The translations under genes and the position numbers were made by a program. A stretch of 64,000 bases of DNA from Prosthecobacter gellanilyticus (lineage in GTDB: Bacteria > Verrucomicrobiota > Verrucomicrobiia > Verrucomicrobiales > Verrucomicrobiaceae), in assembly GCF_007992435.1 (NCBI RefSeq), contig NZ_BKAG01000013.1:1-64000 (forward strand), read 5' to 3'. A model generated the notes under the pieces. The model did no database searches. It had not been told where the DNA came from and was given only the letters and a program-made list of their open reading frames with translations. Positions 111-51,765 of the stretch are shown in pieces (the first letter of the stretch is position 1; each line of letters opens with the position of its first letter).

Positions 111-1592
111 TCAAGCCTCGAGCAGCTTGGACTGCAGTCGGTCCACCATGCTGCGGAACTCCACAGTTTCGCTCATGCGGGAACTGATGACCTTGCAGGC
201 GTGGATGACGGTGCCGTGGTCACGACCACCGAACTCCTCGCCAATCTGGATCAGCGGCAGCTTCACCATGTGGCGGGTGAGATACATGGCCACCTGACGC
301 GCCTCGGCGATGTTCTTCGGACGACGCGGGCCGGTAAGGTCGCTGACGCGGAGATCATACTCCGTGGCCACGGCACGCTGCACACGGTCGACGGTCACAG
401 ACTTCGCGGGTTCCTCATCAATGACATCGTGAAGAAGCTGGGCCAGCGCGGCATCGTTGGCGATGTGTCCCTCGAGGGACACGTGGGCGGCCACACGCAT
501 GAGAGCGCCTTCCAGGCGGCGGATGTTTGTGCGGATGCGCTGGCCGATGAACTCGAGAATCCAGGGCTCAAGCGTGACATTGTAGTCATTCATCTTGCGG
601 CGCAGGATGGCCACACGAGTCTCGAAGTCAGGCACCTGGATCTGGGTCGTGAGACCCCACTCGAAACGGGAAACGAGACGTGCCTCGAGATCCTTGATGT
701 CACCCGGCGGACGGTCGCTGGCCAGCACGATCTGCTTCTGGCTGTTGAACAGTTCGTTAAACGTATGGAAGAACTCTTCCTGCGTGCTGTCTTTGCCGGC
801 AAAGAACTGCACGTCATCGATCAGCAGCACGTCCACCTTGCGGTACTTCTGGCGGAACTGGCTGAAGGTCTGTTTCTTGATGGCCTCCACGTATTCGTTC
901 GTGAACTGCTCGGAGGTCACATAGCGCACCACAGCGCGCTTCTTCCGCATGAGCACTTCCTGGCCGATGGCCTGCATGAGGTGCGTCTTGCCCAGACCGG
1001 TCGGACCGTGGAAGAACAACGGGTTGTAGATGCGTCCAGGCTTCTCAGCCACAGCCCTGGCCACAGCGGCGGAGTAGCTGCAGTTGCTGCCGACCACGAA
1101 GCTGTCGAAGTTGAACTTGGCGTTCAGACCTGCGTCCGAAAAGGAGCGGATGCTCAGCGAGTCATCATGCACATGCGGGCTCGCACGCTCATCGGAATGA
1201 TTGCGGGTGGAGATGACACGCGCGGCCTTCTTTTCCAAAGAGGCATCCGCAGGCAGCGGACGCAGAGGCTCGCTGGCGACCTCATAATGAATGCTGGCAG
1301 CAGCACCGAGAACCTGCGCCACGGCATCGGCAAAGGTGCCGGAAAAGTTGCTCTCGATGAGCAGCTGATGGATCGGGTTCGGCACATGCACCGTCACGCG
1401 ATGATCATCGCTGATGCGTGCTGTGGTGCCGGAGAAGCAGCGTGTGTAGTTGTCCTTGCCGAGCTTCTTCAGAAGGATGGTGCAGATGCGTTCCCAAGGG
1501 GATGGCAGCACTTCAAGAACGGGCGTCGAGCTTTCGAGGTCGCGGGCATCTGGAGTTGGGGAGGAAAGAGTGGCTTCATATGCGGTCTCCAT
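111..1592 (-). CDS. dnaA: Chromosomal replication initiator protein DnaA
   Basis: DnaA binds DnaA boxes at oriC and opens the duplex to start replication. The 493-residue product has the AAA+ core: Walker A GPTGLGKT near residue 200, Walker B LLIDD near 254, and sensor segment SRFEWGL. The C-terminal box-binding signature GGRDHGTVIHAC lies near 452. The frame is open further upstream, but that extension is low-complexity and reads into the AT-rich promoter region. The ATG at 1592 (METAYEA...) gives the usual family length; no strong Shine-Dalgarno decides it. A terminator follows directly. The next gene upstream, thuA-like, has its own terminator, so dnaA is probably transcribed alone. Family assignment is certain; the exact start is likely. 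Confidence 0.95.
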   Translation of the reverse strand: METAYEATLSSPTPDARDLESSTPVLEVLPSPWERICTILLKKLGKDNYTRCFSGTTARISDDHRVTVHVPNPIHQLLIESNFSGTFADAVAQVLGAAASIHYEVASEPLRPLPADASLEKKAARVISTRNHSDERASPHVHDDSLSIRSFSDAGLNAKFNFDSFVVGSNCSYSAAVARAVAEKPGRIYNPLFFHGPTGLGKTHLMQAIGQEVLMRKKRAVVRYVTSEQFTNEYVEAIKKQTFSQFRQKYRKVDVLLIDDVQFFAGKDSTQEEFFHTFNELFNSQKQIVLASDRPPGDIKDLEARLVSRFEWGLTTQIQVPDFETRVAILRRKMNDYNVTLEPWILEFIGQRIRTNIRRLEGALMRVAAHVSLEGHIANDAALAQLLHDVIDEEPAKSVTVDRVQRAVATEYDLRVSDLTGPRRPKNIAEARQVAMYLTRHMVKLPLIQIGEEFGGRDHGTVIHACKVISSRMSETVEFRSMVDRLQSKLLEA

Positions 1593-1957
1593 AATGCTGA
1601 TGGTTGGTGCTGGACTGACGAGAGAGGTCGTTTCGGGAGAGGACAAACACGGCGCTGCATCGAGAGAAACAGCGCCGCTTGTTTTTTCAAAAATTAACAC
1701 CCCTTGTTTATGGCGAATCTGACACGATTCAAAGTAAAAGTTAAGGGTCTTTAAAAAGACTTGGGAAACATCTTGGGTGTTCCACAAAGTTTTTAACCTT
1801 CACATATCCGAAGCATTCTTTAGCAAGTGATTTGTCGACGAATAATGCTTTGATTATGCCTTCGCAGACATGGCTTTTGAGAGCATCAAACAGGCATGAA
1901 AAAGCCGGGCCTTGTGAGCCCGGCTTTTGATCGAGGGATACGCTGTGAAGCCTGAGA
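1593..1957. promoter_or_regulatory. AT-rich dnaA upstream region, possible origin
   Basis: This 365-base spacer between dnaA and the thuA-like gene is clearly AT-rich between about 1680 and 1860, unlike its surroundings. It must hold the dnaA promoter. One weak DnaA-box-like 9-mer, TGTTCCACA (7 of 9 to TTATCCACA), lies near 1779. No box cluster or AT-rich 13-mer series was found, so an origin is only a possibility. Confidence 0.35.
1899..1929 (-). terminator. Terminator of the ThuA-domain gene
   Basis: Stem AAAAGCCGGGC (1900-1910) pairs with GCCCGGCTTTT (1918-1928) around a 7-base loop. It lies 29 bases beyond the stop of the minus-strand thuA-like gene. A-rich and T-rich flanks on both sides could make it work in both directions. 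Confidence 0.85.
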
Positions 1958-2890
1958 TTACTTGGCTTTGGGCTTCGCAGGTGCTGCTGGCTTCGGCTCG
2001 ATGTAAGGCGGGTTCGTGTAGGCCCCGGGAGCCACGTCCTTGATGTTCGCGGGCACCTCTGCCTGCACTTCACCCAGTGCCCAACGGATGCCACCGATGA
2101 GGATGTCCTGGAACACGGGGTTGGTCCACATGTCCTCACGGTGTCCCATGGCGGTATACCACACACGGCCATCACCTTCCTTGCGTGCCCAGGTGCTTGG
2201 GAAGGCAGGGCGCTTGTATTCATCACCCGTCATCGCAGGTGCATCCATCACGCTCAGCACATGAATGTCCGGGGAGAAGTCTTTGAGTGAATACCACTCT
2301 TCCATGAAGGCATAGTCAGCGCCCACTTTTTCAAAGCCGGGGAACTTCGGATTCACCACCGAGTTCTTCACCACCTGCTGCGCACCGTGCTTGATGAACT
2401 CGCCACCAATGAAGCGCACATACGAGTCAGCCTGCTCACCATGATTGAGATAGCGGTCCGGACCTTTTTTAGACTCATTGTTAGTATGGAAGGTATCACT
2501 GGCGGAATGCGTGCCGATGAAGCCCTTGCCAGCCTTCACGAAATCAAACAGCGCCTGCTTGCCTTCCGCAGACATCGGCGGCTGCTTGTCCGTGCCTTCT
2601 TCAAGCAGGTTGCCCGTGGTGTAAAAGAAGACCGCATCAAACTGCGCGAGGTAGTCCTTGGAGAACTTCGAGCCATCTTTGGAAAACTCGAACTCCCACC
2701 CCTGCTTGGCCCCCAGTTCCTGCAGCACTTTTTCGGCATGGCTGGGCTTGCCATTCTTCCAGGAGATCACGCTGTGCTCGAAGCCGCTGGATTTGCTGAA
2801 GAAGAGGATGCGTGACTTTTTGGCCGCAGGGGCCGCGATCACGAGGCCGATGGCGGCCACAAGGCAAAACAGAGGGGCGAAGATTTTCAT
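1958..2890 (-). CDS. Exported ThuA-domain protein
   Basis: A 310-residue protein with an N-terminal Sec signal (residues 1 to about 19, hydrophobic core then AAP). It continues with a ThuA domain, a class-I glutamine-amidotransferase-like fold: the RILFFSKSSGFEHS start, FVKAGKGFIGTHSASDTF, and FMEEWYSL are typical. ThuA proteins are linked to sugar (trehalose) utilisation, and in planctomycetes and verrucomicrobia they are common secreted proteins of unknown substrate. The frame stays open for about 300 codons upstream, antisense to the nitroreductase gene. The ATG at 2890 is chosen because it directly precedes the signal peptide. It is divergent from the nitroreductase gene and ends at a clear terminator. 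Enzymatic role unknown. Confidence 0.85.
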   Translation of the reverse strand: MKIFAPLFCLVAAIGLVIAAPAAKKSRILFFSKSSGFEHSVISWKNGKPSHAEKVLQELGAKQGWEFEFSKDGSKFSKDYLAQFDAVFFYTTGNLLEEGTDKQPPMSAEGKQALFDFVKAGKGFIGTHSASDTFHTNNESKKGPDRYLNHGEQADSYVRFIGGEFIKHGAQQVVKNSVVNPKFPGFEKVGADYAFMEEWYSLKDFSPDIHVLSVMDAPAMTGDEYKRPAFPSTWARKEGDGRVWYTAMGHREDMWTNPVFQDILIGGIRWALGEVQAEVPANIKDVAPGAYTNPPYIEPKPAAPAKPKAK

Positions 2891-3121
2891 GGTTAGGTAG
2901 TAGTTGGGAGCATCAACGCCGGTCCAGATCAATGGGTAAATCGACAGCCGTCTTTGTCCCTCTCTTGCGTTATCCCTTCCTCTTGCGGTGTGAAACCTTC
3001 CCGTGAAGTCATTCCACGAGCGAGAAGAATAACGCAAGAGGACAGCAAGGCACCCGTTGACGAAACTCGCCCCCCGGCCATGGACTGGAGCGTATCCTGA
3101 TCCCTGCCCAGACCTTTTCCC

Positions 3122-3891: not shown

Positions 3892-4359
3892 TCAAAACTC
3901 CGAACGAATCCGTCGGGACAGGAACACAAGCAGCAACACCCCACCCACCACGGCCGAAGGCATCTCCATCGAACTGACCTCGGAGGCCATCACCGTCGTC
4001 GGCACGCCGCTTTCCGAGATGTATTTCCTCTCAGGCTGCGGCCCTTTGACGATGGCCAGCACACTTTCCACGATCAACCACAGCAGCATCACATACAGCA
4101 CGAGGATCGCCCAGCGCCAGCGCCGGATCAGGCCAATGCCCGTGCCGATGCAAATCCACGGCCCGAGGATAATCAGGATGAAGCCTGAAAGCTCAAAGGT
4201 ATTGCTCCCATAACCTCCAACCAGCTGATTGGCACCGGCAATGAGACTCATTGGGGAGGCGATGGCTCCGATCAAGACCAGCAGCCACCCCATCAAGGTC
4301 ACCAAAATGGAGCGTGACGCAGGAAGCGGCGGCGGTAGAGCAGGCTGTTCGGAGTTCAT
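3892..4359 (-). CDS. Small integral membrane protein, unknown function
   Basis: A 155-residue protein with a proline-rich cytoplasmic start (PALPPPLPAS) and about four hydrophobic segments near residues 18-40, 58-80, 84-108 and 134-149. The last is followed by a basic tail (SRRIRSEF). No conserved catalytic residues or recognised family. The coding frame is supported by the clean alternation of hydrophobic segments and polar loops. It is followed on the same strand by ppc read-through distance only, and no operon is evident. Function not assigned. Confidence 0.65.
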   Translation of the reverse strand: MNSEQPALPPPLPASRSILVTLMGWLLVLIGAIASPMSLIAGANQLVGGYGSNTFELSGFILIILGPWICIGTGIGLIRRWRWAILVLYVMLLWLIVESVLAIVKGPQPERKYISESGVPTTVMASEVSSMEMPSAVVGGVLLLVFLSRRIRSEF

Positions 4360-4462: not shown

Positions 4463-7201
4463 CTAACCCGTCGTCCGCAAACCTGAGGCCAGCGCATTGA
4501 TGGACACCAGCAGATCCGGCATCATCCCCTCCGCCGACTCGATCTGACCAGCCTGAATGCGGGCACGCCAGTCACGCAGCAGATTCACCTGCTGCGCATG
4601 CAGCACCTTCAGAGGCTCCTCACGAATCTCCAGCGTATAGGCCAGACGCGGACGACGAGCCGCAAACGAGCCATCAAAGAGGTCTTCCAGCACCGTGCGC
4701 GTGCGCTCAAACTCCGCCAGGATGATGTCCAGGAAGCGGTCACGGATCTCCGTTTCGGCCACCAGGCTGCTGTAGAGCTTCATGAGCTCAATGTTCGTGC
4801 TCACCAGACTGCTTTCGATGTTCGTGAGCACATAGCTCACGAAGGGAGAGTCATGCAGGCGGGCCTTCAGATCGGCAAAGGCAGCCGCATCCGTGGTGCG
4901 CAGCTTTTCCAGCGCGGCTCCAGCGCCAAACCAGCCCGGCAGATAAAAGCGGGACTGGGTCCAGGAAAACACCCACGGGATGGCACGCAGGTCATCCAGC
5001 GAGGCCTGGCCGGTGCGGCGTGACGGACGCGAGCCGATGCGCGCATTCTCCAGCGCGTCGATCGGTGTGGCCTGGCGGTAAAAGCGCATGAAGTCTGGTG
5101 TCTCCAGCAGCGCGCGATACGCCGTGCGACTGTCACTGGCGATCTGGTCCAGCACCCGTGCCAGGGCCTGGTCTGCCGGCTTGCCATGACGATGCCGCGC
5201 CGTGGCCGAGGCCGCGGAAGCCATAAGCAGCTCCGTGTGATACACGGCGGAGCCAAGGTGCGCGTATTTCTGCGCGATAGTCTCCCCCTGCTCTGTCATG
5301 CGCATCCAGCCACCTAACGAACCCTGTGGCAAAGCCTGCATGAACCAGTGGGTCGGCCCCGCGCCACGTCCCACCGTGCCGCCTCGGCCGTGGAAGAAAA
5401 CGGCTTCCACCCCATGCTTCGCCGTGGTGGCAGACAGGGCTGCCTGGGCGCGATGCAGCGCCCACTGACTGGCCATGATGCCGCAATCTTTGTTAGAATC
5501 TGAATAGCCCACCATCATCTGAAACGCGGGCTTCTCTGCCTTCAGACTGCGCTTGGTGACGGGGTGCTGGAGGAACTCGTCCACGATTCCCGGCCCTGCA
5601 TCCAGGTCGGCCATGGTCTCAAACAACGGCGTCACAGGCAGCGGGCAGCGCAGGCCGCCTTCACTCCAGGTCATGAGACCCGCCTCACGGGCCAGCACAT
5701 AGACCGTCAGCAGGTCCTCCATGTTCCGGGTCATCGAGACGATCAGCGATCCCAGCCCCGCCGTGCCATGAGCGGCGATGTGAGCCGCCAGCACTCGATG
5801 ACAGGCCAGCACCGTGTCAGCCTCAGGTCCGGCAGACATGCCTGCGGCCAGGAAGGGACGGGGCGATTGCAGTTCCTTCTCCAAAAGCGCCCGCTTCTCC
5901 GCCAGCGACCAGTCTTTGAGCGGCTTCTCGCCTAACAAACCAGCCGCGCTCAGAAGCTGCTCCAGCGCCTTCTCATGGAAGGCGGAGTTCTGGCGCACAT
6001 CCAGCGCAGCGCAGTGGAAGCCAAAGGCCTCCAGGCGACGACGGAAAGGCACGATGTATTCCACCACCAGCGCATGATCACCCACGCTCTCCAGCGCCTC
6101 GGCATACGCGTTGATGTCCTGCAGCAGTTCGGCGGGAGCTGTATAGGCACCAGCGCTGCCCGGCTTCTCGAGAGCCGCGATCAATCGCGCCCGGATGAGG
6201 TAAGCGGCGGCACGCCAGGGCTCTTCCTTGTTCCGGTCCAGGATGTAGCCCACATCGGGATTGGCATCACCACCCAGCACGGTGCCGAGGCGGGAGGTCA
6301 GCTCCACCAGCACGGGAGGCGTCTTTTGGAACAAAGAGCTCAGCGGCGAATGATGCGCCAGCTGCTCCACCGCACGACGATGCACCCGCAGAGCATTCTT
6401 GCGCAGCTCACGCAGGGCGTTGGCCGTGACGTCCGCCGTCACAAAGGGGTGGCCATCACGGTCACCCCCGATCCAGGTGCCAAAGCGAATGAGCGGCGGC
6501 AGGGCATCCACACCCGCAGGATCAAACCCCGCACTGATCCAGGCCTCGCGCAGATGGATGTGCGCACGGGACAGCGCCTCAGGAAACACCTCGCGCAGGT
6601 AATGCAGCGCGTTTTGCAGCTCGGCATCGATCGTGGGCCGGGTCACATGGATCTCTCCGGTGCGCCAAAGGTTCTCCAGCTGCACCTCGAGCTGGGACTG
6701 GATGCGCGCCTGCTCACGTGGCGTGTAGTCCTTGTTCTCATGGCGGTTCATCAGTGCGTAGATCTCCAGATGCAGATCACGCACGGACTCACGCTTGGCC
6801 TCGGTCGGGTGCGCAGTGAGCACCGGCTCCACACACACCTCGCGCAGCACCTGCAGCAGGTCAGCCTCGCTCACGCCCAGAGCCTTCATCTCCTTCAAGT
6901 TCTCCGGCCACATGCCCGGCTCAGACTCAGGGCCGCGCTCCTTTTCCCGCAGACGGCGGGTCTGGGAGGCAGCGCGCTCCTCCACGATGTTCAGAAGCTG
7001 GAAGGCGATGGACAGTGCCTGCCCCAGCGCACGGTTCGGCTCCGCCCCCACCGTCTGGCAATGGCCAATCCAGGGCAGCTTCTCCGCCAGCCCACCCTCA
7101 CCCACGCGATGGAGCACGGCAGCAAAGGCCGTCATCAGAAAGCTCAAATCATCTTCCAGGAGGCGGAAGCCGCGCTCCCGCAGGGGGTTGGTGGGGGTCA
7201 T
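4463..7201 (-). CDS. ppc: Phosphoenolpyruvate carboxylase
   Basis: PEP carboxylase makes oxaloacetate from PEP and bicarbonate and so replenishes the TCA cycle. The 912-residue product matches family length. It carries the catalytic histidine motif LTAHPTEAKRES (near 125), the glycine-rich FHGRGGTVGRG loop (near 600), GYSDSNKDCGIMASQ and the GSRPSRR motif (near 720). The start at 7201 is preferred over in-frame ATGs upstream because GGAG lies 8-11 bases before it and the N-terminus then reads as a normal PEPC (RGFRLLEDDLSFL). The protein ends in LRTTG, close to the usual C-terminal NTG. The gene stands alone, divergent from the LEPR protein gene. Allosteric control by aspartate or acetyl-CoA is likely but not readable here. 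Confidence 0.95.
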   Translation of the reverse strand: MTPTNPLRERGFRLLEDDLSFLMTAFAAVLHRVGEGGLAEKLPWIGHCQTVGAEPNRALGQALSIAFQLLNIVEERAASQTRRLREKERGPESEPGMWPENLKEMKALGVSEADLLQVLREVCVEPVLTAHPTEAKRESVRDLHLEIYALMNRHENKDYTPREQARIQSQLEVQLENLWRTGEIHVTRPTIDAELQNALHYLREVFPEALSRAHIHLREAWISAGFDPAGVDALPPLIRFGTWIGGDRDGHPFVTADVTANALRELRKNALRVHRRAVEQLAHHSPLSSLFQKTPPVLVELTSRLGTVLGGDANPDVGYILDRNKEEPWRAAAYLIRARLIAALEKPGSAGAYTAPAELLQDINAYAEALESVGDHALVVEYIVPFRRRLEAFGFHCAALDVRQNSAFHEKALEQLLSAAGLLGEKPLKDWSLAEKRALLEKELQSPRPFLAAGMSAGPEADTVLACHRVLAAHIAAHGTAGLGSLIVSMTRNMEDLLTVYVLAREAGLMTWSEGGLRCPLPVTPLFETMADLDAGPGIVDEFLQHPVTKRSLKAEKPAFQMMVGYSDSNKDCGIMASQWALHRAQAALSATTAKHGVEAVFFHGRGGTVGRGAGPTHWFMQALPQGSLGGWMRMTEQGETIAQKYAHLGSAVYHTELLMASAASATARHRHGKPADQALARVLDQIASDSRTAYRALLETPDFMRFYRQATPIDALENARIGSRPSRRTGQASLDDLRAIPWVFSWTQSRFYLPGWFGAGAALEKLRTTDAAAFADLKARLHDSPFVSYVLTNIESSLVSTNIELMKLYSSLVAETEIRDRFLDIILAEFERTRTVLEDLFDGSFAARRPRLAYTLEIREEPLKVLHAQQVNLLRDWRARIQAGQIESAEGMMPDLLVSINALASGLRTTG

Positions 7202-7318: not shown

Positions 7319-9205
7319 ATGAAAACCCCTGCTCAGCAGCCCTCCGCCCTTCTGGAAGCCCTGGAACCTCGTCTGTCCCCGGCCGGGATTGTGACCGTCA
7401 GCGTCGCCGGAGGCGTGCTGACCCTGACGGGGGATGGGGCGGCCAACATGATCGAAATCGTCTCTTCCCATGCCAATGAGTGGCAGCTGCAGGATCCAAA
7501 TCTCGGCGAGCAGGACCCGTCATTGGATACCAAGTTTGTCTTTGCCGGGCAATCAGTCGACACGGCCGTCAAAGATCTGAAATTGCCCACCTACGCCGGC
7601 CTGAAAGTCGTGCTCAACGGTGGCAATGACAAGGTGGATGCGGTCAACCTCTTCACCAACGGCCCGGTGACACTCCAGGGCGGAGATGGCGATGACGACA
7701 TGTTCATCTCCGGCACCTACAACGGCGCCGTGAGCTTTGATGGAGGCAATGGCAACGATGACGTCGGTGTCTACGGCGGCTACATCAACGGCACCGTCAC
7801 GGCCAAAACCGGCGCGGGAAATGACACCGTCTATTTCGGTTCCGGAAACTACACCAAAGGCATCACGGCCGATCTCGGCACCGGGGACAACGTTTTCACC
7901 CTGCTCACCGACAACTCGTTGAATGTCTTTGGCAATATCAGCATCACCACCGCGGGTGGGGCTACCAATGAGCAGGACTACTACTTCGGTATCAAGAGCG
8001 GTGTCATCACGGGGAATGTGACCCTCAAAACGACTGCCGGAGCGGCCTACTACTTCCTCGGGCGGGATGCCAATGACGCCCTGCGCATCAATGGCAGCCT
8101 GAACATCACAGGCAGCGCAGGCGCTGACTCCATGCTTCTCGCAGGCAGCATCTCGATCGGCGGCGCGCTCACCGCCAGCCTGGGCGCGGGATCGAACGGG
8201 ATCTTCAATGGCATCGACACGAACAACAACGACGCCACCCGCCTGGTGCAGCTCACCCTCGGTTCACTGGCCTACACGGGCGGTGCGGGCAGGGACACGG
8301 TCTATCTGGAGTGCCCTGAGGTCGTCATCGGCGGAAATGTCGCCGCCACCATGGGTGCAGGTAAAAATGCCATGAGCTTCTTCAACAGCACGGGCACTTT
8401 CATCGGCGGTTCCCTCGCCTACACCGGCGGCACGGGCGATGACCGGTTCGACTTCGCAGGTGCTGCGGTGACGGTGGGCGGCAAGTTCACCTTCAAAGGC
8501 ATGGGCGCGCAGTCGCAGGATGCCGGTGCCGCGAACACTGACAGCGTCTTCATCTACTCCGACTATGCCGTCCTCCACACCGTGGAACTCATCGGAGGTG
8601 CCACAGGGAGGGACATCTTTCACCTCGGTGTCGCTGAGGGGGCAGACTTGAACTTCACCTCCACCCTCATCTCGGTTCTTGGCGACGTCATCACCAACAC
8701 CGGCGCTGGCTACAGCGATGTGGAGCTCACGGACACAATCGTCCACGGCAAGGTCACCCATACGAGCGCCGTCGCCGCCTCCACGGCTTCCGACTACTAC
8801 TTCATTGAGGATGGTTATGTCACCGGCGCCCTAACCATCAATGCTGCAGGAGCGGCCAATGCCCAGATCGTGATCAATGACACCCTCTGCATCTCCACGG
8901 TGACCATCACCACAGGTGCAGGTGACGACCGCGTGGATTTTGACACCCGAACCACCGAGAGCATCGGCATCTGCGTGTTCTATGGAGCGGTGAGCATCTC
9001 CCTCGGCACCGGCAATGATGACTGGGTGGCAGGCTGGAATCCCGTCACCGATACCGTGGGGAATAACTTCCGGAGCTCCGTCAAAGTCGATGGTGGCACC
9101 GGCAACAATCACTCCTACTACGGCCGCAACAGCAACTGGAACAACACCTTCGTCTACGATCCGGTGTTCCTCGGTGTGATGGCCTATGATCAGGCGGTGC
9201 CTTGA
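7319..9205 (+). CDS. LEPR-type secreted protein with RTX-like repeats
   Basis: This 628-residue protein starts with a short basic region and the motif LEALEPRLSPAG (residues 12-23). That resembles the LEPR N-terminal motif seen on surface-directed proteins of planctomycetes and verrucomicrobia. The rest is a long run of degenerate glycine/aspartate repeats (GGDGDDDMF, GAGNDTVYFG, GTGNDDWVAG) spaced about 20-40 residues apart, typical of calcium-binding RTX-like or beta-solenoid folds. There is no classic hydrophobic signal peptide. AGGGG is placed about 10 bases before the ATG. It is convergent with the DUF1501 gene (7-base gap). Probably a cell-surface or extracellular structural protein; function inferred only from composition. 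Confidence 0.8.
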   Translation: MKTPAQQPSALLEALEPRLSPAGIVTVSVAGGVLTLTGDGAANMIEIVSSHANEWQLQDPNLGEQDPSLDTKFVFAGQSVDTAVKDLKLPTYAGLKVVLNGGNDKVDAVNLFTNGPVTLQGGDGDDDMFISGTYNGAVSFDGGNGNDDVGVYGGYINGTVTAKTGAGNDTVYFGSGNYTKGITADLGTGDNVFTLLTDNSLNVFGNISITTAGGATNEQDYYFGIKSGVITGNVTLKTTAGAAYYFLGRDANDALRINGSLNITGSAGADSMLLAGSISIGGALTASLGAGSNGIFNGIDTNNNDATRLVQLTLGSLAYTGGAGRDTVYLECPEVVIGGNVAATMGAGKNAMSFFNSTGTFIGGSLAYTGGTGDDRFDFAGAAVTVGGKFTFKGMGAQSQDAGAANTDSVFIYSDYAVLHTVELIGGATGRDIFHLGVAEGADLNFTSTLISVLGDVITNTGAGYSDVELTDTIVHGKVTHTSAVAASTASDYYFIEDGYVTGALTINAAGAANAQIVINDTLCISTVTITTGAGDDRVDFDTRTTESIGICVFYGAVSISLGTGNDDWVAGWNPVTDTVGNNFRSSVKVDGGTGNNHSYYGRNSNWNNTFVYDPVFLGVMAYDQAVP

Positions 9206-14896: not shown

Positions 14897-16840
14897 ATGA
14901 ATGACTCCGACAAGCCCGGTCTCCATAAGCTCTCCACCTCCACCCTCGTCATCGCCGCACTCGGCGTGGTCTTCGGCGATATCGGCACCAGCCCTATCTA
15001 CACATTAAAAGAGTGTTTCAGCCCGCACAGCCCGCATCACATCGCCGCCACGCATGCGCATATTCTCGGCGTGGTTTCGCTCGTCCTCTGGGCGCTGATC
15101 CTGCTCGTGTGCATCAAGTATCTCGTCTTCGTGCTGCGGGCGGACAACAAGGGTGAAGGCGGCGTGCTCTCGCTCATGGCCCTGGCCGCGCACGGCTTGA
15201 GTGAAGCTTCCAAACGACGCGCGGTGATCGTGCTGCTCGGCTTGTTCGGCGCCGCGCTGCTTTTTGGTGATGGCATCATCACGCCCGCCATCTCCGTTTT
15301 GAGTGCCGTGGAAGGTCTGAAGGACGGCGGCCTGCTCGGTCATGCACCAGCAGATCTCCACGCGGCCACCGCCTGGGAACATCATACGCAGTGGCTCATC
15401 GTCATCATCACCGTGGGCATCTTGATCGGGCTCTTTTCCGTGCAGTTTCTTGGCACAGCACGGGTCGGCAGATTCTTCGGCCCCATCACCGCGCTGTGGT
15501 TTGTCAGCCTCGCCGCACTCGGGGTTCCGCATCTTCTGCGCGGACCAGAGATCCTCGCCGCTTTCAATCCCTGGCACGGCTGGCACTTCCTCATGACGGG
15601 TGGTCATGAGGGCTTCGTCATTCTCGGTTCGGTCTTCCTCGCCGTCACCGGTGGCGAGGCGCTCTATGCTGACATGGGCCACTTCGGAGCCAGCCCCATC
15701 CGCCGCGCCTGGTTCACGCTGGTGCTGCCAGCCCTGGCGCTGAATTACCTCGGCCAGGGTGCCATGCTCATGCATGAGCCAGAGCTAGCCCATGCGCCCT
15801 TCTTCCAAATGGCACCTTCATGGGCCGCGCTCCCACTGGTGCTGCTCGCCACAGCCGCCACGGTTATCGCCTCGCAAGCGCTGATCACCGGCACCTACTC
15901 GCTGACCCTCAGCGCGGTGCAGCTCGGCTACCTGCCGCGCATCAGCATCCGTCACACCTCCGAGCACGCACGCGGCCAGATCTACATTCCGCTGGTGAAC
16001 TGGCTGCTCATGGTGGCCTGTCTCGCCCTCGTGCTGGTGTTTCGCACCTCATCCAACCTCGCCGCCGCCTATGGCGTGGCGGTGACGATGACCATGCTCA
16101 TCACCACCATCCTCTTCTACTTCGCCGCACGTTCGCTCTGGCAGTGGAGCATCGCGAAAGCGCTGTTGTTATGCAGTTTGTTCGGCCTGATCGAGCTCGC
16201 CTTCCTCAGCGCGAACCTGCTCAAATTCTTCGATGGCGGCTGGCTCCCCATCGTCGTCGGCATCATCCTCTTCCTGCTCATGACCACCTGGGCCACGGGC
16301 CGCCGCCTCGTGCGTGCCCGCATGGATGAAAGCGCCCTCTCGCAGGAGATGCTGGTCACCAGCCTCATGCGCCGCCAGCCCATCACCGTGCCCGGCACCG
16401 CCGTCTTCATGACCAGCACCAGCGGCCGCACACCCGTGGCCCTTTTGCACAGCCTGAAGCACTACCACGCCATCCATCAGCGAGTGATCTTCATGACCCT
16501 CGTCGTCGAAGACGAACCCTGGGTGCCGCCGAGCCGTCGCGTGCTCGTCGAATCCCTAGGCGAAGGTTTCTGGCGCGTCACGGGTCGATACGGCTTCATG
16601 CAAAAGCCCGATGTCCCGCGCCTGCTCCGCCAATGCGCCGCGCATCACCTCGAAGTCGCCGCCGAGACCACCACCTTCTTCCTCGGTCGCGAGATCATCC
16701 TCCCCAGCTCCAAGCCCGGCATGGCCCGCTGGCGCGGCAAAATGTTCGCCCTCGCCAGCCGCCTCGCCGAACAACCCGCCACCTACTTCCAAATCCCCGT
16801 CGGCCGCGTCATCGAGCTCGGGCAGCAGGTGGAGATATAA
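14897..16840 (+). CDS. kup: KUP-family potassium uptake transporter
   Basis: The 647-residue product is a Kup/Trk-independent K+:H+ symporter of the inner membrane. It starts with the family hallmark LGVVFGDIGTSPIYTLKECF, has about twelve hydrophobic segments, and includes GDGIITPAISVLSAVEGL and GGEALYADMGHFG, both characteristic of Kup. The hydrophilic C-terminal domain (from about residue 480) is complete. A purine-rich stretch precedes the ATG. A KdpD/KdpE-like two-component pair lies about 0.9 kb downstream, across a toxin-antitoxin pair on the other strand, so potassium sensing and uptake genes cluster here. Confidence 0.95.
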   Translation: MNDSDKPGLHKLSTSTLVIAALGVVFGDIGTSPIYTLKECFSPHSPHHIAATHAHILGVVSLVLWALILLVCIKYLVFVLRADNKGEGGVLSLMALAAHGLSEASKRRAVIVLLGLFGAALLFGDGIITPAISVLSAVEGLKDGGLLGHAPADLHAATAWEHHTQWLIVIITVGILIGLFSVQFLGTARVGRFFGPITALWFVSLAALGVPHLLRGPEILAAFNPWHGWHFLMTGGHEGFVILGSVFLAVTGGEALYADMGHFGASPIRRAWFTLVLPALALNYLGQGAMLMHEPELAHAPFFQMAPSWAALPLVLLATAATVIASQALITGTYSLTLSAVQLGYLPRISIRHTSEHARGQIYIPLVNWLLMVACLALVLVFRTSSNLAAAYGVAVTMTMLITTILFYFAARSLWQWSIAKALLLCSLFGLIELAFLSANLLKFFDGGWLPIVVGIILFLLMTTWATGRRLVRARMDESALSQEMLVTSLMRRQPITVPGTAVFMTSTSGRTPVALLHSLKHYHAIHQRVIFMTLVVEDEPWVPPSRRVLVESLGEGFWRVTGRYGFMQKPDVPRLLRQCAAHHLEVAAETTTFFLGREIILPSSKPGMARWRGKMFALASRLAEQPATYFQIPVGRVIELGQQVEI

Positions 16841-46388: not shown

Positions 46389-46508
46389 TCACTGCGAGGT
46401 GCCTGCAGAGTCATACTCCCAAAACCAATAACTCAGATAGCCGAGGAACTCACGGACCGACGAGTAGATATCCCGACCTTCAAAGATGTGAGCGTGGCCA
46501 GAATCATC
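46389..46508 (-). pseudogene. 3'-end remnant of an alpha/beta hydrolase
   Basis: Read on the minus strand this stretch is open for about 39 codons and ends with TGA (46389-46391). The peptide DDSGHAHIFEGRDIYSSVREF, then LGYLSYWFWEYDS, looks like the C-terminus of an alpha/beta hydrolase (catalytic His in GHAHIF, closing amphipathic helix). The rest of the gene is absent: an in-frame stop lies just upstream, and the membrane-protein gene ends at 46504. It appears to be the decayed end of a larger gene lost by rearrangement. Not supported by a database match. Confidence 0.4.
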
Positions 46509-47133
46509 GTCTCAGTCTGCGAAACAGAATCACATGCATCAGAAGTGCAGCGCAAACGTGAACCGTCGGGAGCCAGACATAAGGAAAATCTGCCACCCAG
46601 GAATTGGCCGGGGTGAGCATCTGGAAACGGGTCGGAAAGCTCAGTGTGGCCACTGACACGACCCAGACGAGGAGGCAGAGACCGAGAATGTTCCAGGCTA
46701 GCAAAACTCCTCTGGGGACCCGCCCGGCAAAGGGTGCAAGGAGCAAAGCTGTCACCCCACTTACAATGTCGAAATTGAGACCAGACCAGGTCATCTGGGG
46801 AGGCGCGATATCCTCTGTCACCGCCTCGTGGATGCATAGCTCCACCAGGATTCGGAACGACTGAAAGCCGACAAAAAAAGGAAGCGGCAGAAGAAGCCAT
46901 GAGGCGGACGCTTTCGAAAGCGCCACCCACATGGTCATGATAAAGCCCGCATAAAAGAGCACAGGAGCCGCCGGTGGCAGCGAACTGAAATCGCGTAGCG
47001 AGCCACGGGCCGCCAGGATGCCGGTGAGCACCAGCCACGCCAGGATCCCGAGCACCACCCACCGGTTGCGTGAGGTGACCGCAAGGATTGCGGCGACTAC
47101 CAGAGACAGAACAATGAATGATGGAGCAAGCAT
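46504..47133 (-). CDS. Hypothetical integral membrane protein
   Basis: A 209-residue protein with about six hydrophobic segments (near 1-20, 23-42, 53-70, 77-97, 125-145 and 146-165, plus a last one near 187-205). It starts MLAPSFIVLSLVVAAILAV and ends VILFRRLRR. Tryptophans and prolines border the helices, but no recognised family or catalytic pattern is present. It overlaps the hydrolase remnant by a few bases at its stop and sits upstream of the DUF1275/GNAT pair on the same strand. Function not assigned. Confidence 0.65.
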   Translation of the reverse strand: MLAPSFIVLSLVVAAILAVTSRNRWVVLGILAWLVLTGILAARGSLRDFSSLPPAAPVLFYAGFIMTMWVALSKASASWLLLPLPFFVGFQSFRILVELCIHEAVTEDIAPPQMTWSGLNFDIVSGVTALLLAPFAGRVPRGVLLAWNILGLCLLVWVVSVATLSFPTRFQMLTPANSWVADFPYVWLPTVHVCAALLMHVILFRRLRR

Positions 47134-47583
47134 GAACGGACGGGAGAGGGATTTGACCGAACGTTCTGGATCAGGCGATGGCCAGCGGGAAGCGTCGGCG
47201 AGACGAGAGATGCCATAGGTGCCACTGACTGCATCCCTTTTGTTCGCCTTCTGGCGTAACTAGATTCTCATTCAGTCTGGCGCTGCTGAACAAGCGCCGC
47301 ATGAAGATAGGTGGCAGGAAGGACAATGCAAAAAAATCGCCATCTCTGGCAGGCTTTGTAGAATGATATCTGGTTAGCCGAAATCAGGTCTCCGGGAGTG
47401 TTCATCTAGCAATGCTTGAAGTCGGCACCATACAACTTATCAGCATATCCTTCTGCGTCTTCGCCATGATTTCTGGCCACATCGCACCGTGATATCGACT
47501 CATGAGGCACAGAATGCCGAGAAGTGGGGGCTTGTCTTTAACTGGCCTGGGGCACCAACGGAGTTTGATGGTGCCGATAACGA
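47134..47583. other. Intergenic region with a decayed copy of ccp 3' end
   Basis: This 450-base stretch holds no complete gene. Bases 47328-47403 are a degenerate copy of the end of the cytochrome c peroxidase gene (see the direct repeat). The right part, up to 47575, contains a short open stretch on the plus strand (AEKWGLVFNWPGAPTEF) with no start, which may be a gene fragment. A hairpin at 47551-47575 (GGCACCA with TGGTGCC) lies next to the YcaO stop. Confidence 0.55.
47328..47403 (+). repeat. Direct repeat copy B of ccp 3' end (decayed)
   Basis: Aligns with 49547-49623 over its whole length, in the same orientation, with roughly ten mismatches and small gaps. Both contain seven A, the terminator stem region and the block TGGTTAGCCGAAATCAGG. 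In this copy the terminator stem is broken by changes, most of them C-to-T and G-to-A, so this is the older, non-functional copy. It borders the YcaO islet on the left. Confidence 0.8.
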
Positions 47584-48888
47584 CTAGCCCGCAAAATCTT
47601 TCAAACTCGCCGGGAAGGTTGACTTGCAGTTCTTAACATTGAAAAAGCGGTCCTCTCCAGTGATGAATGTATGAGTCACTGTGATGCCATTCCCCAAGAC
47701 CCTAAGTTCGCTAGCATACGGCACTTCTCCGTTTTCATAAATCAGAGCAGTCAGTTGGGCCAGATACTCCTTGGGATCGTGTGAGAACGGAAGTGTGGAC
47801 AGATTATCGTACTCTACCGTTTCGCAACCAAGCGTCCGGCATTTCCACCCCATGTCAAACACGGCACAATCTTGATGTAACGGGAGTCCTTTGAGCCTTG
47901 TTTGTATGGCTTCGCTTTTGGATCTCAACCAGTCGAACCCAAAGATGTGCTTACTCAAAAGGAAGTACTGGGACAGTTCGTAAAGACATCTCAAGATCGC
48001 ATGTTCCGCAGAAAGGGAGCAACCATAGCCAGCTATACCAATTTTAAATTCATATTGTTCCATCCAACTGACATAGGCTGGCACGCCAAATTTGTTAGGC
48101 ATTTGGAATACAAATATCCTGCTGGAAATTTCCTCTTCCAGACGGCCAAAAACATCTCGGATGTTAGGCGGCAAGGTTAGCGGGTTGACCATCCGTAAAT
48201 AGTCTTTCTTGTTCTTCAGAAAGACATCTGCCAGGAATTTGGACAACGAAGTCCTTTCAATACCTTCAAGGAGACCGTGGATCACAGCCTCGTCGGCATT
48301 CATCCCGATTGCAGTCCCGGAATTCGTGGAATAGTGCTCCAGGCGCCCGTAGTTAAAGGTATCTTTTCGCCTTAGCTCCCCGTTCAGCAACTGGAGATCA
48401 ATATACTCTGGGCAAGTCAGCGCCAATGGATAGAAGCACGTCTGGCAGCCATTCACAGCGTGGTGTTTTAAAAACGGAATATCAGCACCTTCCCCGCCTT
48501 TTAAGAGAACTAACGGGAGCTGTTCGCACATGGGATTATCCCGACAATAATCCAGACTGTTCATGTAGAATATCTTGTCCGGATCGAGCGAATGGTAGTT
48601 CGATAACAGATGCTCTGTAGCTTCAAAAAGGCTGCCCGCGCGGGAGGCCATTAATTCTCCTTTGCCATTTCCCGAGGCAAGGAACTTGCCGCTCTTTTTA
48701 TCAGTGATGGAACATTTAGCCGTGTGGATAAATTCACCAGCAATCTCAATGTCGTAATTCAAGCCGAGGGCTTCAAGCTCCTCCAGCAACGCTGCTTCCG
48801 CGTCCAGTAAAGAATAAGACCTTTCGATGGGGATACCTGTCATTGAATATGAGACGGGGAGAAGACAAAAAATAACAGAGTCCGTCAT
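47584..48888 (-). CDS. YcaO-family ATP-dependent peptide-modifying enzyme
   Basis: A 434-residue YcaO protein. YcaO enzymes activate peptide backbone amides with ATP to form azolines, thioamides or amidines in natural peptides (RiPPs) or in proteins such as ribosomal protein S12 and McrA. Three family motifs are present: GNGKG with GSLFEATEHL (E89, E92), NSGTAIGMNADEAVIHGLLE with GIER (E208, E211), and YGCSLSAEHAILRCLYELSQ (E304, Q307). The usual Arg after E92 is His (EATEH). No E1-like or TfuA partner is next to it. Base composition and codon use are visibly AT-richer than neighbours, indicating transfer. The start may instead be the in-frame ATG at 48843. Confidence 0.85.
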   Translation of the reverse strand: MTDSVIFCLLPVSYSMTGIPIERSYSLLDAEAALLEELEALGLNYDIEIAGEFIHTAKCSITDKKSGKFLASGNGKGELMASRAGSLFEATEHLLSNYHSLDPDKIFYMNSLDYCRDNPMCEQLPLVLLKGGEGADIPFLKHHAVNGCQTCFYPLALTCPEYIDLQLLNGELRRKDTFNYGRLEHYSTNSGTAIGMNADEAVIHGLLEGIERTSLSKFLADVFLKNKKDYLRMVNPLTLPPNIRDVFGRLEEEISSRIFVFQMPNKFGVPAYVSWMEQYEFKIGIAGYGCSLSAEHAILRCLYELSQYFLLSKHIFGFDWLRSKSEAIQTRLKGLPLHQDCAVFDMGWKCRTLGCETVEYDNLSTLPFSHDPKEYLAQLTALIYENGEVPYASELRVLGNGITVTHTFITGEDRFFNVKNCKSTFPASLKDFAG

Positions 48889-48996
48889 TTTTTGGTGAAC
48901 TGCGGCACACTACACATCCAAGTGCAGCGCTCCTCTCAGTGAAATGAGGAATTTTTTGTTCGGCGGGAGTTTAATACGTGCGCAGTTGCCCAAGAA

Positions 48997-49032
48997 CCGC
49001 GGCTGAACGCATCGAAATCAGTTCAGCCGCGG
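48997..49032 (-). terminator. Strong hairpin between small ORF and YcaO gene
   Basis: CCGCGGCTGAAC (48997-49008) pairs perfectly with GTTCAGCCGCGG (49021-49032) around 12 bases. It lies 20 bases after the stop of the 71-residue ORF and about 110 bases before the YcaO start, on the same strand. There is no long T-tract, so it may be an attenuator or mRNA-stabilising hairpin rather than a full terminator. Confidence 0.65.
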
Positions 49033-49051
49033 GAAGGAATGGCATTCAAAG

Positions 49052-49267
49052 CTATTTCTCCTGACGGAAATCTTTCCCCTCGCGGCAATCTCTTGCTACT
49101 TTCTCTGCAATTTCGTTAATCAATTTTAACATATTCGCCTCAAAACCAGCCAACTCCTCTCGAGAAATCGAATCTTTGCCGCGAGCAGCAATATCGTACG
49201 GTTTCGGGTCATCATGAACTTTGCCGGGCCATGACAGAGTAGAAAAATCATTAACTACGCTTCCCAT
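49052..49267 (-). CDS. Small ORF upstream of YcaO, unknown
   Basis: A 71-residue ORF, MGSVVNDFSTLSWPGKVHDD..., on the same strand as the YcaO gene and 163 bases upstream of it. The second half is predicted helical and charged (EELAGFEANMLKLINEIAEKVARD). It holds one cysteine and few residues of the kind usually modified (Cys, Ser, Thr), so it is not a typical thiazole/oxazole precursor. Its AT-rich base use matches the YcaO gene, not the flanking genes. It could be a precursor, a leader-binding protein or an unrelated small protein. No Shine-Dalgarno is evident. Confidence 0.45.
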   Translation of the reverse strand: MGSVVNDFSTLSWPGKVHDDPKPYDIAARGKDSISREELAGFEANMLKLINEIAEKVARDCREGKDFRQEK

Positions 49268-49604
49268 ATGGATAAAGTTTTTTGATTGTTGGGAGATTTC
49301 TCCTTCAAGCCCCGCTGGTCGATCGCTCGCACTTGACGAGTTTAGTTCATTGGAGAGAAAGAGAGAGGAAGACCCTCATCACACTGATAAGCTAGACCGT
49401 AGTCTCTCTGACTGTCAAGCGCCGTCTTTATTTCCTTGTAGATCCTTTTTCGAGGGGGTGGCATCCGCACTATTTAGAGCCCATTAAAACACTTCAAAGT
49501 TCATCCAACAAAAATCCCCCAACCGAACCATGCGTATCAAGGCATGGCAAAAAAAGCCCGCCATTTCTGGCGGGCTTCGTGGAATGATCACTGGTTAGCC
49601 GAAA
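49268..49604. other. Intergenic region at the right edge of the YcaO islet
   Basis: This 337-base stretch holds no recognisable gene. Its left part is AT-richer and belongs to the islet; it may hold the promoter of the 71-residue ORF (TTGACA on the minus strand at 49413-49418, without a good -10). Its right part has the peroxidase terminator. Confidence 0.5.
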
Positions 49605-49623
49605 TCAGGCCTTCGGGGTGTTC
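49547..49623 (+). repeat. Direct repeat copy A (functional ccp 3' end)
   Basis: The intact counterpart of the degenerate copy at 47328-47403. It includes the last codons of the cytochrome c peroxidase gene, its stop and its terminator. Same orientation as copy B, about 2.2 kb apart, with the YcaO islet between. Confidence 0.8.
49549..49580 (-). terminator. Terminator of the cytochrome c peroxidase gene
   Basis: GCCCGCC (49556-49562) pairs with GGCGGGC (49568-49574) around a short loop. On the minus strand it is followed by a run of seven T. It lies about 30 bases beyond the stop at 49605. Confidence 0.92.
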
Positions 49624-50627
49624 GGACCGCTGGCGGGGAGTTTAGGGACGGCGATGTACTCCTTCGGCAGGTCGCCTTTCAGGGACTTGAGGAAGGTGAC
49701 GATGCTGGTGGTCTCCTCAGCGGTGATGGTCTTGCCAAGCTGATGCTCAGCCATCTTGGAGACCATCTCCTCGAGCGTCACGACCGAGCCGTCGTGAAGA
49801 TAGGGGCCGGTCTCGGTGATGTTGCGGAGGCTCGGGACTTTGAAGTGATGCTTGTCGCTCTCGAGCTTTGTCGTCTCCATGCGGCCGATGTCCTTGAGCT
49901 CAGGCCAGGCTTTGGCGAGGCCGAGCTTCTGATACATGGCCCCGCCGATGGCAGGACCATTGTGGCAGGTGGCGCAACCAGCTTTGGCGAAGGTTTCGTA
50001 GCCCTTCACTTCGGCGGAGGTGAGAGCTTCCTTTTTACCCTTGAGGTAGTCATCCCAGCGGGAGGGCGTGACGAGCTTGCGCTCGAAGGCACCCACGGCC
50101 TTGCCGAAGTTGTTGTAGTTCACGGGGTCAGACTCACCTGGGAAGGCGGCTTTGAAGGCATCCACATAACCGGGCATCGATTTCAGCACGTCGACCACAA
50201 AGTCAGCGCTGGGCATGCCCATCTCGACGGGGTTCAGCACCGGGCCTTTGGCCTGCTCTTCCACGGTGGGTGCGCGGCCATCCCAGAACTGGGTCACGTG
50301 CAGAGCGGCATTGTAGGTGGAGGGGGAGCTGCGGCCGCCGAGCTTGCCTTCATGGCCTGGGGAGAAGGGCAGGTTGTCCTGGCCGTATTTGTCCAGCATG
50401 TGGCACGAGTTGCAGCTCATCTTGCCGCCTTTGGAGATGCGGGTTTCGAAGTAGAGCATGCGGCCAAGGTTGATCTTGGCTTCGGTGAGCTCGTTGCTGG
50501 CCGATGGTGCCTCAGCGGGCAGCGGCTTGAACATGGCGAGGAAGGAATCCGAGAGAGCATCAGCCTTCAGGGACTGGCTGCCCATGGCGAGGGCGGCCAC
50601 GACGAGGAGTCGGGAGGTTTGTATCAT
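49605..50627 (-). CDS. Di-haem cytochrome c peroxidase
   Basis: A 340-residue exported protein of the CcpA/MauG family. Signal peptide about 1-22, followed by two haem-binding sites, C72-N-S-C75-H76 and C218-A-T-C221-H222. Supporting segments are LGRMLYFETRISKGGKMSC, FWDGRAPTVEEQAKGPVLNPVEMG and HHFKVPSLRNITETGPYLHDGSVVTLEE. CcpA reduces H2O2 in the periplasm with electrons from cytochrome c or cupredoxin; the MauG branch oxidises protein substrates. The 3' end is duplicated at 47328-47403. Length matches the family. It is divergent from the sugar nucleotidyltransferase gene. Confidence 0.93.
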   Translation of the reverse strand: MIQTSRLLVVAALAMGSQSLKADALSDSFLAMFKPLPAEAPSASNELTEAKINLGRMLYFETRISKGGKMSCNSCHMLDKYGQDNLPFSPGHEGKLGGRSSPSTYNAALHVTQFWDGRAPTVEEQAKGPVLNPVEMGMPSADFVVDVLKSMPGYVDAFKAAFPGESDPVNYNNFGKAVGAFERKLVTPSRWDDYLKGKKEALTSAEVKGYETFAKAGCATCHNGPAIGGAMYQKLGLAKAWPELKDIGRMETTKLESDKHHFKVPSLRNITETGPYLHDGSVVTLEEMVSKMAEHQLGKTITAEETTSIVTFLKSLKGDLPKEYIAVPKLPASGPNTPKA

Positions 50628-50856: not shown

Positions 50857-51765
50857 ATGAAACCCACTCTTCTCATCCTCGCTGCCGGCATGGGCAGCCG
50901 TTACGGCGGTCTCAAGCAGCTCGACGCCATGGGCCCCTCCGGCGAAGTCGTGCTCGACTACTCGGTCTTTGACGCCATCCGCGCCGGTTTCGGCAAGGTC
51001 GTCTTTGTGATCCGTCGTGACTTTGAAGAGCAGTTCCGCACGCAGATCGGCTCCAAGTTTGGCGACCGCATCGCGGTGGACTATGCCTTCCAGGATATCA
51101 ATGACCTGCCGGAAGGTTTTACCGTGCCGGAAGGCCGCACCAAGCCCTGGGGCACGGCCCATGCGGTGCTGGCTGCTGAGAAGGTGGTGAACGAGCCCTT
51201 CCTCATGATCAATGCGGATGACTTCTATGGCCGTGATGCCTTTGCCAAGATCGCCGCGGATCTCACCACGCCACGTCCAAATGATGGCAAGAGCCACTAC
51301 TCCATGGTAGGCTTCTACCTGAAGAACACGCTTTCCGACCACGGCAGCGTGGCCCGCGGCGTGTGCACCCGCGACAGCAACGGTGCGCTCAGCTCCGTCA
51401 CGGAGATGACGAAGATCTTCAAGACGGCCAATGGTGCTGAGAACCGCGAGACCGATCCTGCTCTGCCGCTCACCGGTGAAGAAGTCGTCTCCATGAACTT
51501 CTTCGGCTTCACGCCAGACATCTTCGGCCACCTGCGCACTGCCTTCACCGGCTTCCTCAAGGAGAACGGCCAGGAGCAGAAGTCCGAGTGCTATGTGCCA
51601 AAGGAAGTGGATGTGCTCATCCAGACCGGCAAAGCGGATGTGAAGGTGCTGGAGTCCAATGATTCCTGGTTCGGCGTGACCTACCCTGAGGACAAGGCTG
51701 ACGTGGTGGCCTCCATCCGCGCGCTGGTGGATGCAGGTGCTTATCCGCAGAACCTTTGGGCGTAA
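50857..51765 (+). CDS. Sugar nucleotidyltransferase family protein
   Basis: A 302-residue NDP-sugar pyrophosphorylase-fold protein. The N-terminal nucleotide-binding motif LLILAAGMGSRYGGLKQL (near 4-21) is followed by the PWGTAHAVLAAEKVV segment (near 95-110), the metal-binding MINADDFYGRDAF (near 112-124) and SMNFFGFTPDIF. The family includes glucose-1-phosphate uridylyl- and thymidylyltransferases, but the specificity cannot be read. Substrate likely a sugar-1-phosphate for envelope polysaccharides. The gene is alone; the next region is a palindromic repeat, and the rlmD gene is on the other strand. Confidence 0.85.
   Translation: MKPTLLILAAGMGSRYGGLKQLDAMGPSGEVVLDYSVFDAIRAGFGKVVFVIRRDFEEQFRTQIGSKFGDRIAVDYAFQDINDLPEGFTVPEGRTKPWGTAHAVLAAEKVVNEPFLMINADDFYGRDAFAKIAADLTTPRPNDGKSHYSMVGFYLKNTLSDHGSVARGVCTRDSNGALSSVTEMTKIFKTANGAENRETDPALPLTGEEVVSMNFFGFTPDIFGHLRTAFTGFLKENGQEQKSECYVPKEVDVLIQTGKADVKVLESNDSWFGVTYPEDKADVVASIRALVDAGAYPQNLWA

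Follow-up and report, generated by a model that had tools for sequence, protein, structure and literature searches.

The window, a stretch of 64,000 nucleotides, belongs to contig 13 of a genome of 7.65 Mb, the relatives of which are recorded as Prosthecobacter and other Verrucomicrobiaceae. It contains a gene for a standalone YcaO-domain enzyme and a small open reading frame (ORF), which together occupy an islet behind an intact gene for a di-haem cytochrome c peroxidase (ccp). The far side of the islet is marked by a truncated copy of the ccp end, followed by an integron attC site and further gene remains. The features are, in the order of their coordinates:

46392..46508, minus strand: C-terminal remnant (39 codons) of a DUF218-type gene, fused to the ORF209 end
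46504..47133, minus strand: ORF209, without a Pfam match or an attC of its own; its ATG follows the attC site by 20 nt, as in cassettes
47153..47249, minus strand: integron attC site with R'' (47242-47248), R' (47156-47162) and a bulged L''/L' stem
47328-47403, minus strand: left repeat copy, a 5'-truncated and decayed ccp end with terminator
47404..47583, no strand: spacer from the ycaO stop to the left copy, with a 16-nt imperfect inverted repeat
47584..48888, minus strand: standalone YcaO-domain enzyme of 434 aa (PF02624, E=3.2e-18)
48997..49032, minus strand: hairpin formed by a perfect inverted repeat of 12 bp, located between the 71-aa ORF and ycaO
49052..49267, minus strand: 71-aa ORF beginning with MGSVVNDFS, the proposed precursor with an N-terminal core and a C-terminal follower
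49522..49528, minus strand: GTTCGGT, equal to the R' box of the attC site; possible cassette border where the AT-rich islet ends on the right
49547-49623, minus strand: right repeat copy, comprising the last five ccp codons, the stop (49605-49607) and the terminator
49605..50627, minus strand: intact ccp of the MauG/CCP family (Pfam PF03150, CCP_MauG, E=4.5e-53)
50857-51765: nucleotidyltransferase gene, the upstream neighbour of ccp, kept in six distinct relatives among those checked

The islet and the duplicated ccp end

The first-pass annotation had described an AT-richer islet with a YcaO enzyme and a small ORF between two copies of a gene end, in agreement with the composition of its parts (44-51% G+C compared to a window mean of 60%) and with the presence of ycaO and the 71-aa ORF. 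Besides ycaO, no ORF of the islet exceeds 92 aa, and it therefore contains no ORF of integrase size. The YcaO protein is a member of the YcaO superfamily on the basis of its domain and of the GxGKG, ExxEH and NxGxAxG...EAxxHxxxExxER residues, which are retained in a four-way alignment with homologues and which we take to form the ATP/Mg site. Judged by alignment, translation more likely starts at Met16 (48843). Relatives of the enzyme were detected neither in 95 other related genomes (E<=1e-3) nor in 386 other genomes of a phylum sample partly overlapping with these 95 (E<=1e-6); pattern-seeded scans of genome contigs and viral contigs and a search of phages were likewise negative, and the own genome contains no second match at E<=1e-3. 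Matches were found in the plasmid collection, where eight records from Nonomuraea, Streptomyces, Pantoea, Acinetobacter and Vibrio share 26.6-28.6% identity with the islet enzyme. The low G+C content and the lack of YcaO relatives in the related genomes and the phylum sample sustain the earlier view that the islet is foreign.

That 47328-47403 directly duplicates the end of ccp with its terminator at 49547-49623 was also borne out, the two copies being 84.6% identical over 78 alignment columns (66 matches, 6 transitions, 3 transversions and 3 gap columns). A repeat finder delimited a core of 67 nt at 84%, and a looser local alignment extends the pair to 47319-47403 and 49539-49623. The alignment score of 50 is to be compared with a maximum of 18 for 2971 random 100-mers from the window. 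The left copy was rightly called decayed because its coding end carries a 1-nt insertion causing a frameshift and its terminator stem is damaged, and its changes are indeed mostly transitions (6 of the 9 substitutions). Six of the differences are G/C in the right and A/T in the left copy, and two have the opposite direction. Recurrence of the repeat across the genome, named beforehand as an observation speaking against an insertion, was not encountered, as one search of the own assembly returned these two copies only (E<=0.001). The sequences following the two copies are not similar to each other.

The surroundings of ccp are conserved on the upstream side only: in none of the relatives read are the downstream neighbours kept, and the downstream DNA was unlike that of the window in every case. 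The ccp proteins of the nearest relatives are ca. 85% identical to that of the window. An empty site was not found upon searching the ccp protein in 56 genomes and the genome contig collection, the downstream region being too variable. In 21 loci of relatives (19 of them distinct and two fetched twice), no direct copy of the ccp end exceeding 19 bp was displayed in addition to the first, which fits an insertion in the lineage of the window without showing an empty site.

Four short translated fragments yielded no Pfam match. The spacer 47404-47583 was considered and rejected as a small transposon or second attC site, given a fold z-score of -1.97, no target duplication detectable by eye and no further copy among the matches listed from 56 genomes. 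An Rfam search over 45-51 kb returned a sub-threshold CRISPR-repeat match as the sole result (E=0.44), which was dismissed.

Integron remains beyond the islet

The attC site lies ca. 80 bp beyond the left repeat copy in the orientation of the islet genes. When the DNA segment 46900-47600 was searched in 56 genomes, many matches were obtained besides the repeat to a 90-bp stretch left of it, which are clustered in arrays in relatives. The aligned family has GGCGAAC...GTTCGCC boxes and a stem of the form CGGAT(G)CAGGC/GCCTGATCCG. A covariance model built from 35 attC sites of relatives, the window copy being left out, recognized the site with 77.7 bits (E=2.6e-20) as the sole match of the window at E<=10. 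Folded alone as single-stranded DNA, the site is no better than shuffled sequences (z 0.12 and -0.80), and the assignment therefore rests on the model match. It agrees with the R''/R' boxes, with the imperfect L''/L' stem bearing an extrahelical base and with the cassette arrays which the family forms, together with an integrase, in relatives. The recombinase adjacent to an array in a relative has IntI4 as its best solved match (E=7e-70) and is, by this match, an integron integrase. At 1e-5 the attC family is present in 43 of 48 genomes of the genus, and in 41 cassettes the ORF starts at a median of 18 nt after attC and the sites are spaced by a median of 639 bp (range 434-3092). Several array loci, among them L064, L065, L067 and L086, are chromosomal integrons with short cassettes, and several fetched contigs end near attC. 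An intergenic-looking repeat containing CATGGGTACCAGGGTAGCCTCG straddles an attC site at L229:5989-6300 / 7809-8119.

In the own genome, one search found no integron integrase and returned partial matches to three tyrosine recombinases only, of which the two read (303 and 296 aa) look Xer-like to us; the combination of attC sites with an integrase in the same genome, as in a complete integron, was accordingly not encountered. The attC matches comprise the window site, a site on contig 10 (E=1.2e-9), a weak third one (E=0.02) and two at chance level, 150 of 5692 first-look candidates having been scored. The contig 10 site (147825-147917; L094:5826-5918, plus strand; 48.3 bits) is a second lone attC, followed after 16 nt by an ORF of 141 aa, and no direct repeat was found in the surrounding 12 kb.

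ORF209 resembles a cassette gene in its start shortly after attC. An attC of its own is missing here and is present directly behind the 53% identical homologue of one relative (G020), the only strong homologue among 96 genomes. A homologue (L101) of the adjoining DUF218-type gene matches PF02698 with E=5.7e-27. A reading frame with its stop 19 nt ahead of the window attC was discarded as a truncated cassette ORF, since a stop so near is likely to occur by chance. The attC site, the cassette-type ORF209 and the broken DUF218 gene together identify the left flank as integron debris and, from its position only, we infer that this debris is at least as old as the islet. The arrangement resembles a CALIN or single attC in its R''/R' boxes, bulged stem, array-forming family and a cassette ORF 20 nt on; it differs in that the window has one attC, the genome has no detected integron integrase, the attC of ORF209 is lost and a gene-end duplicate adjoins. 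Insertion of cassettes into genomes at attG sites is mentioned in passages of PMC12444791 and PMC12901181, which cite it. Integrons in Verrucomicrobiota have already been described at the level of the phylum in a passage of PMC8618304, and among publication titles of the open-licence literature none was found on Prosthecobacter integrons or on integron gene cassettes with YcaO.

Gene-end copies in relatives and the route of entry

A self-comparison of 1.80 Mb in 96 sequences (0.87 Mb of the own genome and 0.93 Mb of relatives, with 60 attC loci fetched) revealed 32 unique direct pairs at a distance of 0.5-8 kb and no unique inverted pair. The direct pairs include several attC pairs or gene families. 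Four of the 32, that of the window and three in relatives, share one layout, in which an intact gene is followed by an islet and then by a 5'-truncated duplicate of the 3' end of that gene. The three copies in relatives are:

L197:2407-2638 / 5632-5865
L202:4049-4140 / 6029-6120
L114:2780-3011 / 4089-4320

The genes concerned differ, being ccp, an FAD oxidoreductase gene, a squalene-hopene-cyclase-like gene and a DUF1592-type gene. An attC site is present in the islets of L197 and L202 and absent from that of L114, and the idea that such copies are specific to attC loci was dropped on account of the latter. Via the nearest orthologue of the L202 gene no empty site was found, the downstream DNA being different again. 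At L087 (10788-10930 / 16259-16401), the region around the 5' end of a gene (490-aa ORF) is copied several kilobases away with attC sites in between. The same layout at four unrelated genes points to recombination at arbitrary genes rather than at one att site.

We tentatively favour a scenario, which we consider quite possible if still short of probable, in which the islet represents a two-gene module of horizontal origin, with bottromycin-like chemistry, that entered by one-sided homologous recombination at the ccp end. The incoming DNA would have shared the end of ccp, and this homology would have been used on the ccp side, while the far side would have been joined without homology or by a single crossover of a circle. 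The outcome would be an intact ccp with the new genes behind it, next to the decayed integron remnant of attC, ORF209 and the broken DUF218 gene, and with the recipient's own ccp end left as a truncated copy that has since decayed. The repeat is read as such a left-over of the recipient gene because truncated 3'-end copies beyond islets also occur in the three relatives. The route of entry and the order of events are those we infer from the present arrangement. A donor of the module was not found, and the small number of gene-end copies (4 of 32 pairs), the lack of attC in L114 and the existence of a 5'-end copy in L087 count against the scenario. A related process, homology-facilitated illegitimate recombination, is described in parts of PMC3240628 for three naturally competent species, one end being homologous and the other not. 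Its likeness to the window lies in this asymmetry, here deduced from the end products only; the literature behind the comparison differs in that it covers no Verrucomicrobiota.

The R' box GTTCGGT at 49522-49528 is not needed by one-sided recombination in the recipient, which leaves it unexplained; a former cassette state of the module in its donor would account for it naturally. This heptamer has 5 matches in the 64 kb on both strands, and in 40 nt of one strand the exact R' 7-mer is expected 0.0016 times and a loose R' pattern ca. 0.03 times. Entry as a gene cassette, inserted beside the ccp terminator by an integron integrase, with its 5' border between the G and TTCGGT (49528), the attC at 47153-47249 as its recombination site and the ccp-end copy picked up inside, appears rather unlikely. 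It would account for the exact 7-mer at both borders in the same orientation and for the common minus-strand orientation of attC, 71-aa ORF, ycaO and ORF209; an average cassette G+C of 0.535 and the many attC sites of the genus standing alone in fetched stretches are further compatible with it. However, the ycaO stop is 335 nt away from attC, compared to a median of 22 nt in the 41 cassettes (8 of 41 exceeding 130 nt), and the first ORF starts 255 nt past the border instead of a median of 18 (5 of 41 exceeding 255), and there is no evident reason why a cassette should contain a ccp end.

A local tandem duplication of the ccp end with neighbouring DNA, followed by deletions and without DNA entering at that time, the YcaO genes having arrived earlier or otherwise, is improbable to us. 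Direct duplication is evidently common here, as the 32 unique direct pairs are confronted with no unique inverted pair, but the dissimilar sequences following the two copies and the absence of relatives of the islet gene from the phylum sample speak against it. Quite improbable is the reading of the first-pass annotation, namely that an element integrated site-specifically at the 3' end of ccp and that the two copies are old attL and attR. Such an event would leave the 3' end of a gene directly duplicated on the far side of foreign DNA, as is seen here, but the islet has no integrase-sized ORF, the copies are only 84.6% alike and the genome search revealed no further copy of the repeat, no empty site and no second genome with the element turned up, and the similar gene-end copies in relatives involve unrelated genes. 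The foreign origin proposed earlier is supported and the att-like integration is not; the attC site next to the left copy had been overlooked, as had the cassette-type gene that follows.

A putative two-gene macrocyclisation module

The 71-aa ORF has no Pfam, NCBIfam or PADLOC match. In all of seven YcaO loci from five divergent lineages, the window included, the nearest upstream ATG ORF of 25-110 aa starts with Met-Gly; the tally covers six of the eight plasmid records, all but H3 and H5, whose score equals that of H4, and the upstream ORFs of L317, L318 and L319 are unannotated and were picked by position, all ATG candidates of 25-110 aa being listed. Among the small ORFs of the window, 14 of 304 (4.6%) start with Met-Gly. 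Both this pattern and the positional resemblance were recognized only in retrospect. The ORFs of the window and of Nonomuraea have MGxVV in common, a resemblance which is positional, as their general local alignment is not significant (352 of 2000 shuffles equal or better); alignments with the other four ORFs are worse. The hairpin at 48997-49032 could set the ratio of precursor to enzyme.

The bottromycin precursor itself starts with M-G-x-V-V. The small Met-Gly ORF beside a standalone YcaO corresponds at the sequence level to a bottromycin-type arrangement, the role of precursor being deduced from it, and the 71-aa ORF is predicted to encode a bottromycin-like precursor with an N-terminal glycine that the standalone YcaO would cyclise. 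The enzyme would use ATP to activate a backbone amide of the peptide which, after removal of the methionine, would be attacked by the N-terminal glycine to form a bottromycin-like N-terminal macroamidine, and the C-terminal part of the peptide would serve as follower. In analogy, excerpts of PMC5103208 propose an attack of Gly1 on the Val4-Val5 amide in bottromycin, catalysed by a YcaO protein and a partner protein, and according to excerpts of PMC7136475 bottromycin originates from the N-terminus of a precursor with the follower behind it, and two standalone YcaOs act without partners. The islet resembles this system in a small M-G-x-V-V ORF upstream of a standalone YcaO and in the absence of an E1-like partner. 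In contrast to it, the islet encodes one YcaO instead of two and no methyltransferase, P450 or hydrolase, the 71-aa ORF has no Cys near its N-terminus, and the partner protein of the macrocyclising YcaO, as described in the excerpts of PMC5103208, is absent. With the second YcaO and the methyltransferases missing and no further enzyme-sized ORF in the islet, the locus is not a bottromycin cluster; it may work like a bare bottromycin-type macrocyclisation unit. The streptamidine-type amidine RiPPs of Actinobacteria carry a YcaO-dependent N-terminal amidine such as the one proposed here (in part of PMC8442711), but streptamidine clusters need genes for AmiB, a hydrolase and a dehydrogenase, and their core (HLSAT) follows a leader.

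Possible, if on the doubtful side, is a still wider interpretation, in which a Met-Gly precursor and one standalone YcaO make up a minimal macroamidine RiPP family outside bottromycin clusters. The family would span Actinobacteria, Gammaproteobacteria and Verrucomicrobiota. As a small module it would travel on plasmids and reach chromosomal sites littered with integron remains, through recombination in which the old end of the host gene stays behind. In this genus, as the findings suggest, attC sites and cassette genes can persist after their integrase is gone. The gene-end scar, encountered at four unrelated genes in one genus, would be a readable mark of how small foreign genes may become added behind intact genes without an integrase. 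If the proposed chemistry is right, macrocyclisation by YcaO could be tested on the two-gene unit with a single substrate and a single enzyme, independently of the remaining bottromycin pathway.
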